Shown: in pieces, positions 25,285 through 29,897 of the stretch
Position numbering within the stretch: the stretch's first letter is position 1
How the letters are laid out: the number at the start of each line of letters is the position of its first letter
Assembly (NCBI GenBank): GCA_021228405.1
Contig: JAJQRF010000006.1
Location: 62,001-126,000, forward strand
Source: Pyrinomonadaceae bacterium
GTDB lineage: Bacteria; Acidobacteriota; Blastocatellia; Pyrinomonadales; Pyrinomonadaceae
Direction of reading: 5' to 3'
DNA length: 64,000 nt
Made by a program: the position numbers and the translations under genes
Notes under the pieces: generated by a model
Databases searched by the model: none
The model's input: the letters and a program-made list of their open reading frames with translations, nothing else
Told to the model about the DNA's origin: nothing

Positions 25285-26271
25285 ATGATTTTTCCCCGCC
25301 TGAAAAAAGGCATAAATTCTATTTACAAGAAATCAATCATTCATACTCAAATTCTGATTATAGTGTTTCTTATCCTCTTTTCAGGACCCAAAGTTAAAGC
25401 CCAAAACCCGAAAATATACGGTTTTTGCAAAGAACTGAAACTAAACTCTCCCCAGATGATCGCGTCTGATAATGCAACAATCTTTTTATACTCGGATAGT
25501 AAAGTTATTGCGGTAGATTCAGACTCGCTGACAAAAAATTGGGATTACGAATTAAATGGTCAATTACTTACGAAAACCATCTTAAATGACGAAAAACTGA
25601 TACTGAAAACAATTTCGGAGGATAAAAACGAACGTTCTACGACACTGCTCGAACCTCTTCAATTTAATAACATAATCATAAACTCAAATACGGGAATACC
25701 CATTGAAATTAGTGAAATAAGTGTCGAAAACAATCCTTCCAGTGAGGAAGGTCACAGGGAAAATATAAACTTCGCCGACTCAAAATTAGACGACAAGATC
25801 GTAATTAAAAGAAAAATTGATTCAAAATATATCCTCGGATACATTGACGGCACGATTGTTCTCATAGATAGCGATCTAAAAACTCTTTTCTGGAAAACAA
25901 AGGTCGGCGGTGAAGTAACAGGTATAATGCCTCTGAAAAGCGGAATACTGGTTAGTTCAAAAGATAATTTTTTGTATTTTTTGAATTCGGTAAATGCTAA
26001 CAAAATTTGGAAAAAACGAATGTCAGGGCGTATTTTGAATATTTTAAATATCGACGGCGATTTAGTCGCCCCGATTGTCCCAGATTCAAAAGAAATATCC
26101 TTGATCGATGTAGTGAAAGGTGTCGAGGTCGGAAAAATATTGGAGGAAAACAAAGACAAAATAATCGACGTTAAAAAGTTTTCGCATAATATTCTAATTC
26201 TTTTAACAGAGTCCGGGTTAGCAAAATATTCGGTTAACAGATGTAAAGATAAAGAAGCGGAACTTTTATAA
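25285..26271 (+). CDS. Exported beta-propeller (PQQ-like repeat) protein
   Basis: A 328-residue protein with a signal peptide (hydrophobic residues about 20-36, ending VKAQ). The mature part has repeated blade-like units such as VIAVDSDSLTKNWDYEL, VLIDSDLKTLFWKTKVGG and LYFLNSVNANKIWKKRM, which resemble PQQ/BamB-like propeller repeats; about four can be seen. No catalytic residues are apparent. Function unknown; BamB-like scaffolding or another periplasmic binding role is possible. Its 3' end forms half of a hairpin (26254-26283). Confidence 0.65.
   Translation: MIFPRLKKGINSIYKKSIIHTQILIIVFLILFSGPKVKAQNPKIYGFCKELKLNSPQMIASDNATIFLYSDSKVIAVDSDSLTKNWDYELNGQLLTKTILNDEKLILKTISEDKNERSTTLLEPLQFNNIIINSNTGIPIEISEISVENNPSSEEGHRENINFADSKLDDKIVIKRKIDSKYILGYIDGTIVLIDSDLKTLFWKTKVGGEVTGIMPLKSGILVSSKDNFLYFLNSVNANKIWKKRMSGRILNILNIDGDLVAPIVPDSKEISLIDVVKGVEVGKILEENKDKIIDVKKFSHNILILLTESGLAKYSVNRCKDKEAELL
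25461..25472 (+). repeat. CGCGTCTGATAA word, copy 4
   Basis: Exact 12-mer inside the propeller-like gene, read as Ala-Ser-Asp-Asn, a different frame from copy 2. Confidence 0.6.
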
Positions 26272-27175: not shown

Positions 27176-27535
27176 TTAGATGCCTTGAGATAAAGTTTTG
27201 ATAGTTGAGATTCCTGAAATCGAGAGTAATTCCTCTTGCGACAAGGTTTTTGCATTAATATTAAGCGAATTCTGAAGCCCGAGGCAAACCGCTCCCAGTA
27301 TTCTGTTTTGCGTTAAACTCCCGGCTCGCGTTAGAAAAACCCCGGATATGTTTTTACGCTCGATATTGTTTTTCGCCAAAAGATTTTCTATCTGGATCAA
27401 AATATCTTTATCCATTCTTCCCGATCTTTCATCTTTTCCAGCAAAAGGCAGAAAATCGACCACTGTGTTATCACAAACAATTACGATATTCCCATTTTTC
27501 ATCGTCGCGTCTAACAAAATGACGTAATTCTTCAT
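27176..27535 (-). CDS. Short TsaB-like protein
   Basis: A 119-residue protein that aligns by eye to only the N-terminal half of TsaB: ILLDATMKNGNIVIV for the first strand, a helix with IQIENLLAKN, then GVFLTRAGSLTQNRI where TsaB has TxGPGSFTGLRIG, and LGLQNSLNI. The usual 200-230 residue protein has a second actin-like lobe that is missing here. TsaB is the scaffold for TsaD in t6A tRNA modification. Position beside rimI supports homology; it may be a degenerate paralogue or a truncated gene. Confidence in the family is moderate. Confidence 0.5.
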   Translation of the reverse strand: MKNYVILLDATMKNGNIVIVCDNTVVDFLPFAGKDERSGRMDKDILIQIENLLAKNNIERKNISGVFLTRAGSLTQNRILGAVCLGLQNSLNINAKTLSQEELLSISGISTIKTLSQGI

Positions 27536-27584: not shown

Positions 27585-28454
27585 TCAATATTTTTCTCCG
27601 GTTAACATCGTCCTGACAATTCTTTTCAATGAAGGCTGAATTCTGTAAAATATGTTCAAAATTTGAATTTTAAGACGGCTTCCATCATTAAACTCACCAT
27701 CCAATTCTACCGTTGCCTGAATCATATTCGGAGGAATCCTTTTTTTTAATTGTTCAAAAAACAATTGCCTGTCATTCAAACAAGTGTGCAAGGGTCTAAG
27801 TGGAACAGGCTGTTTCCATTCCCTTTCAACCGTTTTAATTATCCACCTCGGAATGTCCCTCAATTTATCATTAAAAGGCAATCTATCGACGTTTAATCCG
27901 AAATATTTATATACCAGTGCAATCGTTACAATTATCCAGTTTCGCCGTTTTGAATCAACCACATTCAGGCATTTATCCCAATCGAAGTCTTCAGCGTTTT
28001 TTTCGATCAGGTAAAATATATCTCTTAACTTTTCTTTATAAATCCCGCCGTCAAACAGCCAGTGCACACATAAAACTCGCAAGTGATCTTCAGGGCATAA
28101 AACCCTGATATTATAACCGTCGATATTTGCAACGACGGAATTCTCGAAAACTCGCTCCCACGGCAAAGAATCAAGTTTTCTAAACCCTTCGTGCAAATCG
28201 ACCGTTAGCTTTAAATCTCTGGCAAGGTTTGTTGCCTTTTCAAAATCCTTCGGCGGAACAGCCAAATCTATATCGCTGAATACCCTTTCATATTGAGCCG
28301 GATAATATAACCCGGCTGCCCAACCCTTTAACAGGATCGGTTCAATATCGTTCTCTCTAAAAATCTCAAACAATTCGACGATCTGCTTTTCCAAAACCTT
28401 AAATTTAAGCAGTTTCCAGCGTGTTTCATTATTGTTTTCGGAAATATTGTCCAC
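27585..28454 (-). CDS. Nucleotidyltransferase family protein (NTP_transf_5-like)
   Basis: A 289-residue nucleotidyltransferase-fold protein. LLKGWAAGLYYP followed by RVFSDIDLAVPP supplies the GW/S...DxD metal-binding pattern of the Pol-beta-like fold, and CVHWLFDGGIYKEKLRDIFYL is typical of the NTP_transf_5 group. Relatives occur with PqqD and HprK-like kinases in peptide-modification and exopolysaccharide loci, where they may nucleotidylate a peptide or sugar. It lies downstream of the PqqD-Cys gene, separated by a terminator-like hairpin. Target unknown. Confidence 0.75.
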   Translation of the reverse strand: MDNISENNNETRWKLLKFKVLEKQIVELFEIFRENDIEPILLKGWAAGLYYPAQYERVFSDIDLAVPPKDFEKATNLARDLKLTVDLHEGFRKLDSLPWERVFENSVVANIDGYNIRVLCPEDHLRVLCVHWLFDGGIYKEKLRDIFYLIEKNAEDFDWDKCLNVVDSKRRNWIIVTIALVYKYFGLNVDRLPFNDKLRDIPRWIIKTVEREWKQPVPLRPLHTCLNDRQLFFEQLKKRIPPNMIQATVELDGEFNDGSRLKIQILNIFYRIQPSLKRIVRTMLTGEKY

Positions 28455-28459
28455 AAAAT

Positions 28460-28490
28460 AAAAAAGCCGAGTTCAAACCCGGCTTTAGCG
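28460..28490 (-). terminator. Terminator between PqqD-Cys and nucleotidyltransferase genes
   Basis: On the minus strand AAAGCCGG, an inner GTT/AAC pairing and CGGCTTT followed by a T6 run. It lies right after the PqqD-Cys stop and just before the nucleotidyltransferase start, so it may limit readthrough and raise the level of the upstream product. Confidence 0.75.
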
Positions 28491-28507
28491 TAAAAAATTA
28501 AATCCGA

Positions 28508-29011
28508 TTAGTCACCACTGCAAGCACCTGCCGCGCAAACGCCTGTCGGACCGCCCGGTCCATTCTCGTCGCAGGGAGTACCATCCGGGCAACCTAAGCA
28601 ACTCGCAACGATACCGGAGCAGGATACTGCCAAAGCCGCAGTCGGAGCGGTTAATGAAGCTATCAATGGAAGCGCGATCACGCTTGCCAAACCGATTTTT
28701 TTCAAAACCGCACGTCTGCTTTGACCTGCAAATTTCGTTTCAACTTCATTTTCGAGCAAATTCCGCTCATTAAGCTGATCAATCGCAAGCCATATCAAAT
28801 CGTCCGTAACCTTACCGCCAGACATTTTCTCAAAATTGGCGGCAATGTCGGTAACTGAATTCAAACCGTCACAGTTTTTCCAAACGAATGCTGCTGTTTG
28901 GTTTAAACAGTGAGCCTTATTTGAATCTAAATCATAAACCAAAACTTCGTCCGGCATTTCCTGAACGACCAATCTTTCTCTCCGAGCGATTGGATTTTGC
29001 GAGTTATACAT
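28508..29011 (-). CDS. PqqD domain fused to twin-arginine-like segment and Cys-rich tail
   Basis: A 167-residue three-part protein. Residues 1-90 are PqqD-like (EVLVYDLDSNKAHCLN, AAFVWKNCDG, DQLNERNLLE), a fold that binds leader peptides of modified peptides. Residues 97-128 read as a Tat-type signal (SRRAVLKK, a hydrophobic core, and TAALA before a possible cleavage). Residues 129-167 are Gly/Pro-rich with six cysteines (131, 138, 141, 147, 159, 164). The ATG at 29011 has GGAGGAG just upstream. A signal after a cytoplasmic domain is odd. I infer a peptide precursor carrying its own recognition domain; no experimental function is known to me. Confidence 0.8.
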   Translation of the reverse strand: MYNSQNPIARRERLVVQEMPDEVLVYDLDSNKAHCLNQTAAFVWKNCDGLNSVTDIAANFEKMSGGKVTDDLIWLAIDQLNERNLLENEVETKFAGQSRRAVLKKIGLASVIALPLIASLTAPTAALAVSCSGIVASCLGCPDGTPCDENGPGGPTGVCAAGACSGD

Positions 29012-29057
29012 ATATTCTCCTCCGAAAAATTTTAACTTCAATTCAATGAAAATAACA

Positions 29058-29897
29058 CTAAAAAGCTTGTGTTTCAAAAAAATTTAATATAATTTCAGCA
29101 AAAATTCCTGCTTCACCTCTTTGGGTCTTTGAGATTATGGCACGATTTACCAATTTATTCAAGACATTTAACGAAAATTCGGGGTTATTTCTTATCGGGA
29201 TCGTATGCGGCAAAAGTTCCATAATTCCTTCTCCCATAGTTAATTGAATCGGTTTCCAAACAGCTTCAGCGTTATATTCCGTCAATAGCACCATCCCGAC
29301 CGGCAGTTCTTTTTTAGAAGCCTTTCCGCCGATGGTTTCGACCGCCATATCGATTTGTCTAAAATCATCAACTACCCCTCGTAAAGATAACATTTTCGGG
29401 AATGGATGCACAAACCCTTTTTTATCCAAAACTGCATATTCATCCGAGAAATATAATGCGCCCTTCTCAACCAACGCCGATACGAGCGTCGATTTGCCCT
29501 GAAAACTCTTTCCGGGAATGATGATCGCTTTCCCCTTCCAGGCAACCACTCCCGCGTGCAGAAATACTCTCTCGACCGCATATTCCGCGATAGTTACTCT
29601 AATCTTCGTGTCAAGATGTGCAAGTATCAGTTCGAGTGTTTCCGAACTGTGAAAAGGCTTCCCGTTTTTAATTATTGAAAAATAATCGTTATCGTCTAAC
29701 TTCAATTGAAAAAGATATTCTACATCCTCTTTATAAATCTTACGGTAACTGTGCTTCAAAGATAATTTCAATTTATAAATAAAGTCGGAAATTTCCTTCG
29801 ATATTTCAATATATTCTATTATTTCAAGTCCGATTTTTACACCGAACGACTCGAAATATATCTTTCTGCTCAATAAATTATTTCTCTTTTCAGCCAT
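29058..29897 (-). CDS. HprK-like P-loop kinase
   Basis: A 279-residue protein with an HPr-kinase-type P-loop: FLHAGVVAWKGKAIII leads to PGKSFQGKSTL (Walker A), then GALYFSDEYAVLD for the catalytic acidic residues. The N-terminal 110 residues are family-specific. Unlike true HprK it lacks the regulatory N-domain. Related kinases sit with PqqD proteins: some phosphorylate lasso peptides, others form the so-called HPr-rel-A set beside polysaccharide loci. Here it is upstream of the PqqD-Cys gene by 46 bases, which is its likely substrate or partner. Confidence 0.8.
   Translation of the reverse strand: MAEKRNNLLSRKIYFESFGVKIGLEIIEYIEISKEISDFIYKLKLSLKHSYRKIYKEDVEYLFQLKLDDNDYFSIIKNGKPFHSSETLELILAHLDTKIRVTIAEYAVERVFLHAGVVAWKGKAIIIPGKSFQGKSTLVSALVEKGALYFSDEYAVLDKKGFVHPFPKMLSLRGVVDDFRQIDMAVETIGGKASKKELPVGMVLLTEYNAEAVWKPIQLTMGEGIMELLPHTIPIRNNPEFSLNVLNKLVNRAIISKTQRGEAGIFAEIILNFFETQAF

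Follow-up and report, generated by a model that had tools for sequence, protein, structure and literature searches.

A kinase, PqqD-fusion protein and nucleotidyltransferase cassette from Pyrinomonadaceae as a candidate system for maturation and export of cysteine-rich peptides

The K-P-N cassette

The stretch of DNA considered here, termed the window, comprises 64,000 nucleotides from a Pyrinomonadaceae bacterium of the Acidobacteriota (GenBank assembly GCA_021228405.1, contig JAJQRF010000006.1, positions 62,001 to 126,000) and carries three adjacent minus-strand genes, designated K, P, and N, which encode an HprK-related P-loop kinase, a precursor-like protein with a cysteine-rich tail, and an enzyme of the nucleotidyltransferase fold, respectively. 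A first-pass annotation made from the letters of the sequence had singled out this trio as a candidate peptide-modification system, and the open reading frames (ORFs) bear out the arrangement that it described. K (29058–29897) encodes 279 amino acids, P (28508–29011, stop codon included) 167, and N (27585–28454) 289 from a GTG start. P is contained within a longer ORF (28508–29077) that would give 189 residues from a TTG codon; its start is most likely the ATG at 29011, five bases past a ribosome-binding-site-like GGAGGAG (29017–29023) read from the sequence. A terminator-like hairpin with a T run (28463–28486) stands between P and N. Upstream of the cassette lies a polysaccharide gene cluster on the same strand (29932–52410; WecA-like, glycosyltransferase, flippase, Wzz/AAA, and SLBB export genes), and TsaB-like and RimI genes lie downstream. 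A search of the window's genome returned one match each for P, K, and N.

P itself is tripartite. Residues 1–90 (28742–29011) form a PqqD domain with the predicted βββ-ααα fold of a recognition element (RRE) for ribosomally synthesized and post-translationally modified peptides (RiPPs); residues 98–128 (28628–28720), SRRAVLKKIGLASVIALPLIASLTAPTAALA, constitute an internal twin-arginine signal running from SRRAVLKK to ALA; and residues 129–167 (28511–28627) make up the predicted exported part, with the cleavage point placed after TAALA. This tail amounts to exactly 39 residues with six cysteines, just as first counted. Lasso cyclases, radical S-adenosylmethionine (SAM) enzymes, and YcaO proteins, reported missing at the outset, are indeed not found among the 27 window ORFs scanned against Pfam, a scan limited to the larger ORFs between 25.3 and 56.4 kb; the Pfam matches of the same ORFs also include neither an asparagine-synthase-like cyclase nor a transglutaminase-like peptidase.

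A predicted recognition element and an internal export signal in P

The window's P protein scores 30.2 bits against the Pfam PqqD model, over the cut-off of 23.4, spanning 39 of 67 positions, and every one of 65 P family members matches the same model. AlphaFold2 supplied with the 65 family sequences yields a block-mean predicted local distance difference test (pLDDT) score above 90 at residues 11–90, with three strands (14–18, 23–27, and 32–36) followed by three helices (38–46, 53–64, and 70–82), and low confidence in the tail. The closest structure in the Protein Data Bank is the lasso RRE TbiB1 in complex with its leader peptide (E 3.8e-4, TM score 0.76 on the target); TruD, TigE, the lasso B1 protein 6jx3, and PqqD 5sxy are the other top matches, all weaker than E 0.001. 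The first domain of P is accordingly modeled, and predicted, to be an RRE. A P-x-A-R segment near its N terminus is likewise conserved.

The segment behind this domain is strongly conserved. Among 161 distinct P proteins, gathered by whole-protein similarity and not by motif, the twin arginines are present in all 157 rows that cover them, as are Pro115 (156/156) and Pro123 (157/157). Of these 157 rows, 146 place S, N, or T immediately before the arginine pair (Ser in 114), and 144 have K or R at the fourth position after it. The canonical twin-arginine translocation (Tat) motif reads S/T-RR-x-hydrophobic-hydrophobic-K/R ahead of a hydrophobic stretch. Owing to the invariant arginines, the S/N/T residue before them, and the basic residue at the +4 position, the P segment is assigned as a predicted Tat-type signal that is internal and follows a folded domain, a placement that amends the earlier description of a PqqD domain simply joined to a Tat-like segment while leaving both of its elements in place. 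The signal ends in an AxA-like manner, with alanine at −3 in 70 of 87 curated P proteins, a count biased by a cutting rule that prefers AxA and requires A or S at −1. Among general models, TIGR01409 exceeds its cut-off in one relative (L197; 19.6 vs. 16.7), and PF10518 matches 1 of 65 P proteins. The signal segments of the 87 curated proteins are free of cysteine, and their leaders contain odd and even cysteine numbers alike.

Even-numbered cysteines in fast-changing tails

The tails of the P family hold 4 to 22 cysteines, which make up 16% of the residues over 87 curated tails and are even in number in all 87 (binomial 1.3e-26, computed on tails of relatives and hence on nonindependent samples). 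A second set gives even numbers in 85 of 86, and the two sets combined in 152 of 153 distinct tails representing 46 different cysteine frameworks; this total includes two mis-picked twin-arginine rows with two cysteines each (a fragment from L199 and a second L132 copy), without which the parity is 150 of 151. The sole odd tail (L174) looks frameshifted, more cysteines continuing in another frame. Three of 90 ORFs had been dropped from the first set (a fragment in L094, an unclear start in L110, and one fragment in L042) and four of 90 from the second (two in L160 and one each in L191 and L194); the P alignments comprise 46 of the 87 curated proteins (A1), 12 (A2), and the window with 64 of 86 (A3). 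Even parity maintained over such diverse frameworks is the pattern of a fully disulfide-bonded protein, and for this reason the tails would seem to carry disulfides rather than a cysteine-based modification.

Knottins, or inhibitor cystine knots, follow the pattern C-C-CC-C-C. This spacing occurs in 17 of the 87 curated tails compared to a mean of 1.9 (maximum 7) in 500 shuffles; the window's own tail (C-C-C-C-C-C) has no CC pair and fails the framework. Weak Pfam matches among the 65 family members are to UPF0506 (3), Omega-toxin (2), Toxin_12, Conotoxin, and Conotoxin_I2 (1 each). A link to fulvocin was dropped as support: 1 of the 65 P proteins matched the fulvocin C-related family NF033852 (E 0.002), and the member responsible was not among the 10 of these 65 that were rescanned. 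In 29 genomes (30 of 77 loci), NF033852 has matches in five, over its cut-off in two.

In sequence comparisons, the tails diverge fast, and much faster than the leaders. Out of 422 pairs with a leader identity of at least 60%, the tail is the more similar part in just two; tail identity averages 61% in the eight pairs whose leaders are more than 90% identical; and in 36 close pairs the nonsynonymous proportion is 3.7-fold higher in tails (median), the synonymous proportion 1.25-fold. The tail is the slower-evolving part in the pair L127/L133. Positive selection is not claimed, dS being saturated or undefined in many pairs. The variable Cys-rich tail proposed from the window is thus matched by the alignments of its class, in which the tail is the most variable part and its cysteines are nearly always even in number. 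Homologous loci without such a tail, named beforehand as a finding that would refute the proposal, did not turn up in this class; tail-less and Cys-free forms do occur in other classes of the phylum. Two of the latter (L256:7109–7804 and L257:2593–3423) combine a PqqD domain and a twin-arginine signal with a Cys-free, Gly/Thr-rich tail, one with long repeats, and a K relative lies near this second type of tail.

Serine or threonine directly precedes the first tail cysteine in 97 of 153 tails, compared to 17.6% for later cysteines. This residue is the best candidate acceptor for a modification, although its frequency may merely reflect the cleavage site.

The kinase and the nucleotidyltransferase

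The identification of K as an HprK-like kinase is upheld by its best NCBIfam match, TIGR04352 (HprK_rel_A; 57.8 bits, E 9e-16), which is below the cut-off of 200; its Pfam matches are weak (Hpr_kinase_C, E 0.049), and its profile finds no match at E 0.1 among the sequences of solved structures. His114, the Walker A Lys135, and Asp152 are invariant in 79 K rows, counting the rows that cover each column, and Glu153 is kept in at least 90% of 41 aligned rows (alignment A4, the window with 40 of 47 K proteins).

N, first described as NTP_transf_5-like, matches that family outright (PF14907, 78.7 bits vs. a cut-off of 31.2) and retains Asp61 and Asp63 of the DxD motif. Along with these two residues, Gly44, Arg57, Asp86, Glu122, His131, and Asp145 are invariant, and Lys43 is present at 98%, in the 80 rows that cover each column (A5 being the window with 46 of 55 N proteins). 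Its predicted model (pLDDT 95) adopts the nucleotidyltransferase fold and superposes on MenT1 (Z 13.1, root-mean-square deviation 2.9 over 157 residues), ANT(2″)-Ia (Z 10.9), and the CDP-ribitol transferase FKRP (Z 7.7, a level that may mean just a common arrangement). By family score, intact DxD, and predicted fold, N therefore belongs with the nucleotidyltransferases. With catalytic-type residues retained, both K and N look active as judged from their sequences. A defence or phage origin was considered and dropped: P and N have no match in PHROGs or PADLOC, and K has one weak match in each (E 0.002 and 0.006).

Co-occurrence and expansion of the P family

The association of the three genes extends well beyond the window. 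In a sample of 60 genomes, consisting of the window's own and 59 relatives, P is present in 33, with 1 to 44 matches each. P and K occur together in 32 genomes, P alone in one (G030), K alone in three (G046, G050, and G054, none of whose K matches is better than E 3e-5), and neither in 24. The corresponding figures for P and N are 32 with both, one with P alone (G049), three with N alone (G002 and G041, strong; G010, weak), and 24 with neither. Fisher's exact test gives 1.9e-12 in each case, values that are indicative given that related genomes are nonindependent samples, and the tallies take in a few matches truncated by contig ends (K in G008, P in G012). For the 37 genomes of the window's own family, P and K are found together in 21, P alone in one, K alone in none, and neither in 15. 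The search for the three-gene neighborhood that had been suggested as a check thus finds the same three families together in many genomes, beyond chance.

A scan of named genomes located 77 P loci, mostly in metagenome-assembled genomes (MAGs) of Acidobacteriota; six are labeled Gemmatimonadetes, two Myxococcales, one Abditibacteriaceae, and one Chloroflexi, and such MAG labels can be wrong. In Gemmatirosa kalamazoonensis KBS708, a plasmid-borne P with six tail cysteines overlaps a K-like frame, and an N-like frame lies on the other strand. Across the phylum, the family profile matches at least 111 of 297 genomes. Most of the matches listed from outside the window's class consist of a PqqD domain only, and the long P matches among them fall in five genomes (G133, G196, G219, G235, and G291). 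Gene order is mostly K-P-N; L074 and L115 have P-K-N instead, and numerous P genes stand apart from both K and N.

One genome, G026, appears to have undergone a strong lineage-specific expansion of P. Its 44 P matches, a few of them incomplete or interrupted by stops, are spread over many contigs and partly in tandem (L042–L061 and L102–L112), against one K and a single full-length N. These two are adjacent, with no P in the 20 kb fetched around them. Because of this disproportion and separation, it is probable that numerous P proteins are served in trans by K and N. The P genes of G026 show no consistent partner among their neighbors; the largest groups are other P genes (9), followed by groups of seven and four that resemble, from their protein starts, serine/threonine kinases and response regulators.

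Expression layout and recurrent neighbors

The hairpin between P and N is the one terminator-like site in 2.6 kb of the window, compared to 2.7 expected from shuffles, and a simple terminator scan of the window alone means nothing. Across loci, 28 of the 54 P genes that are followed by N (that of the window and 53 from the 77 loci of named genomes) have such a hairpin at their 3′ end, compared to 0 of 53 stretches from the end of the P coding sequence and 0 of 54 shuffled copies, which are modest controls given the other constraints on coding sequence and the mononucleotide shuffle. The position of the hairpin is kept, its sequence differs among most loci, and a few are near-identical (L152 and L153). 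Such a layout, in which a precursor would be made in excess over N, fits P as the gene of a product more readily than as that of a chaperone.

As in the window, the cassette adjoins a polysaccharide cluster in many relatives. A group of gingipain-family peptidases (Peptidase_C25; one representative tested, L084:1466–4792) recurs beside it in eight loci, with C25 sites falling within or bordering L062, L064, L065, L079, L083, L084, and L088, and none in the genome of L069. Of the 33 genomes with P, 25 have C25 proteins, compared to 9 of the 27 without (Fisher 0.0015); as a required part of the cassette they were rejected, since G026 with its 44 P matches has none. A secreted-looking family of 207 residues (L065:11852–12472, also in L062, L064, L067, L076, and L099), with no Pfam match, is a further recurrent neighbor.

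The genes downstream of N have features of their own. The TsaB-like ORF (27176–27535, minus strand), directly before RimI, is merely 119 residues long and aligns weakly, through residues 7–104, to a model of 212 positions; TsaB-like neighbors in relatives include forms of 213–225 residues. In the window's genome, the TsaB model has a single hit at E 0.001, inside a 359-residue frame that may be TsaD. A plus-strand gene further on (25285–26271) encodes a secreted-looking protein resembling BamB and pyrroloquinoline quinone propellers, and by position it probably belongs to the same family as one in 13 related loci, the window itself being outside that clustering.

A proposed peptide-maturation and export cassette

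We consider it somewhat better than an even bet that K-P-N is a peptide-maturation and export cassette, in which P is a precursor with its own RRE, an internal Tat signal, and a hypervariable tail. The precursor reading of P is, as far as sequences can speak, well supported: the leader-type domain, the export-type signal, and the variable Cys-rich tail anticipated by the first-pass annotation can each be read from the protein. In the scheme we favor, the RRE domain of P would recruit K and N in the cytoplasm, where K would phosphorylate a serine or threonine of the precursor and N would then transfer a nucleotidyl or sugar-phosphate group, by analogy with PsmK and PsmN acting on a lasso peptide. 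The Tat translocase would export P, a signal peptidase would cut after the AxA-like motif, and the tail would fold into a fully disulfide-bonded mini-protein outside the membrane, with one K-N pair serving many P genes in trans. The shared architecture, the predicted RRE fold, the Tat-type motif, the even-Cys tail, the linkage to active-looking K and N, and the gene layout fit a precursor equipped with its own docking domain. An exported disulfide-rich product with an RRE leader is the likely component of this scheme, and modification of that product by K and N before export could equally well be true or false.

A number of observations weigh against the scheme as a whole. Apart from cysteine, the tails have no invariant acceptor residue, and a C-terminal serine or threonine is found in 13 of 153, unlike the substrates of lasso kinases. 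One genome (G072) encodes two P-like proteins with Cys-free, Gly/Thr-rich tails after a similar signal, from which it seems that tails can be exchanged altogether, and the P-like protein of G196 is nearly tail-less. A folded domain ahead of a Tat motif is an unusual position, and general Tat models miss the signal of the window's P, the sole match being to formate_TAT at E 0.051. TatC, present in 33 of 33 P-bearing and 24 of 27 other genomes (57 of 60 overall, p 0.09), is too widespread among genomes without P to discriminate; it permits Tat export and does not prove it. The co-occurrence has breaks: K is missing from the P-bearing G030 (71% complete) and N from the P-bearing G049 (96% complete), and the strong N matches of G002 and G041 have no P beside them in the genome. 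Distant TIGR04352-like kinases also occur without this P, at least 86 of 149 phylum genomes having a match at E 0.001 and one lying over the cut-off among the matches listed; as these weak matches are so widespread, the P-K link would be limited to the close K family and not extend to all HprK-like kinases. Finally, the polysaccharide neighborhood is also compatible with sugars as the substrates of K and N.

Other explanations accommodate parts of the same evidence. P could be an exported disulfide-rich protein whose tail is displayed by an uncleaved N-in/C-out membrane segment, with the PqqD domain as no more than a recruitment or membrane-side anchor and K and N acting on the RRE part to control export or turnover instead of decorating the tail. 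The joint conservation of the PqqD and signal parts beside a varying tail, the want of a constant acceptor in that tail, and the common serine before the arginine pair would all be at home in such an arrangement, which is nonetheless unlikely in light of the AxA-like ends of most signals, rule-biased as they are, and of the two invariant prolines, which would make the segment poor as a stable anchor. Less probable again is that K and N are enzymes of polysaccharide biosynthesis and P a bystander that travels with the locus. The position of the cassette at a polysaccharide cluster in the window and many relatives is what one would then expect, but P tracks K and N across the 60 genomes, even where they are unlinked as in G026, and the cassettes of L083, L084, and L085 have no recognized recurrent polysaccharide groups alongside, the unclustered genes of these loci being unannotated.

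The two remaining readings are both very improbable. If the tail were a cytoplasmic, metallothionein-like metal-binding domain and the twin arginines not an export signal, the high cysteine content and the CC pairs of many frameworks would follow naturally, but not the arginines that are never replaced, the hydrophobic segment with its AxA-like end, or an even parity that metal sites do not require. A functionless C-terminal extension gained by the PqqD protein of an HPr-rel-A cassette, to which the kinship of K with TIGR04352, the weak TIGR04353 matches of 18 of 65 P proteins, and the PqqD genes of L247 and L248, which lack a tail and neighbor K and N, might lend themselves, would not keep even cysteines and an invariant signal throughout the family.

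Returning to the proposed maturation and export cassette, candidate roles for its product are antagonism, adhesion to or decoration of the exopolysaccharide, and signaling: rapid tail change and a repertoire of 44 matches would suit interactions with other organisms, and the polysaccharide neighborhood would suit a role at the cell surface. Certain bacteria of soil and sludge appear to produce families of small, rapidly changing, Cys-rich proteins, each joined to a recognition domain and export tag of its own and linked to one shared pair of enzymes, in what looks like an undescribed route to secreted mini-proteins. More tentatively, and with the balance tilted against it, the cassette might define a new class of ribosomal peptides with a self-carried RRE and Tat signal, in which one K-N pair processes unlinked precursors genome-wide into phosphorylated or nucleotidyl- or glycosyl-phosphorylated, disulfide-rich mini-proteins, venom-like or surface-attached, and Tat export checks that modification is complete. 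If the favored scheme is true, bacteria hold a large untapped store of disulfide-rich mini-proteins, some with knottin spacing. The leader and export signal would then form a modular tag able to carry highly dissimilar Cys-rich tails, and a set of HprK-like kinases and NTP_transf_5 enzymes beside polysaccharide loci would be assigned a substrate. With the RRE sitting within the presumed product gene, such systems would escape searches that look for a small precursor encoded separately.

Comparison with known systems

A biochemical precedent comes from lasso peptides. According to one study, PadeK acts on the precursor of the lasso peptide paeninodin, a His-Lys-Asp-Asp set is essential in the ThcoK/PadeK group of kinases, and in pseudomycoidin PsmK phosphorylates the C-terminal serine and PsmN adds a hexose to the phosphate, the directness of this transfer being left open (PMC9266682). 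K shares the conserved His-Lys-Asp of PadeK and PsmK and, by our own reading of the residue correspondence, differs in having glutamate in place of the last aspartate. The paeninodin and pseudomycoidin systems, as portrayed there, resemble the cassette in the nucleotidyltransferase-type partner (PsmN), and the predicted RRE fold of P resembles lasso B1 proteins. The cassette differs in that the RRE is fused to the presumed substrate, in that the tail is a Cys-rich protein and not a lasso core, and in the absence of a lasso cyclase among the 27 ORFs scanned.

RREs paired with exported precursors have a precedent in DUF2063-type RREs with DUF2282 precursors, whose signal is described as dependent on the general secretory (Sec) pathway and whose RRE is a separate protein (PMC12710340). 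The likeness lies in an RRE system whose precursors bear a signal peptide, the difference in a signal that here is of the predicted Tat type and fused to the RRE. In the passages of the RRE literature consulted (including PMC12710340), these domains either belong to enzymes or are free-standing proteins next to a precursor encoded separately, and no RRE-precursor fusion is described there. Literature retrieved on PqqD/HprK/nucleotidyltransferase combinations, HPr-rel-A, and RREs, in which subscription papers have a small share, likewise yields no description of the cassette. Knottins and conotoxins share their cysteine spacing with some tails of the family and not with that of the window, and kinship with animal toxins is not implied.

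Two annotated gene sets resemble the cassette in composition. The SynChlorMet cassette, with the HprK-like ScmC and the PqqD-like ScmD, includes radical SAM genes, which are not among the window ORFs scanned; ScmD is the best NCBIfam match of P, at 23.5 bits against a cut-off of 100. The HPr-rel-A set brings together an HprK-like kinase, a PqqD protein, and a nucleotidyltransferase-type gene, and the parallel originally drawn with it holds insofar as the same three family types are together here and K is nearest to TIGR04352. It does not extend to formal membership, as K falls far below the HPr-rel-A cut-off and the window's P has no match to TIGR04353 at E 1 or better (cut-off 35 bits). The 18 of 65 family members that do match TIGR04353 do so at E 0.01 or better, the best being L198 (E 4.2e-7, 30.8 bits vs. 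35), and the model, at merely 74 positions, has no signal or tail. With these cut-offs failed and no lasso cyclase in the scanned ORFs, the cassette is filed neither as HPr-rel-A nor as a lasso system. The tail-less PqqD genes that adjoin K and N relatives in L247 and L248 nevertheless suggest that the cassette descends from one of the HPr-rel-A kind, in which the PqqD protein gained a signal and a product.

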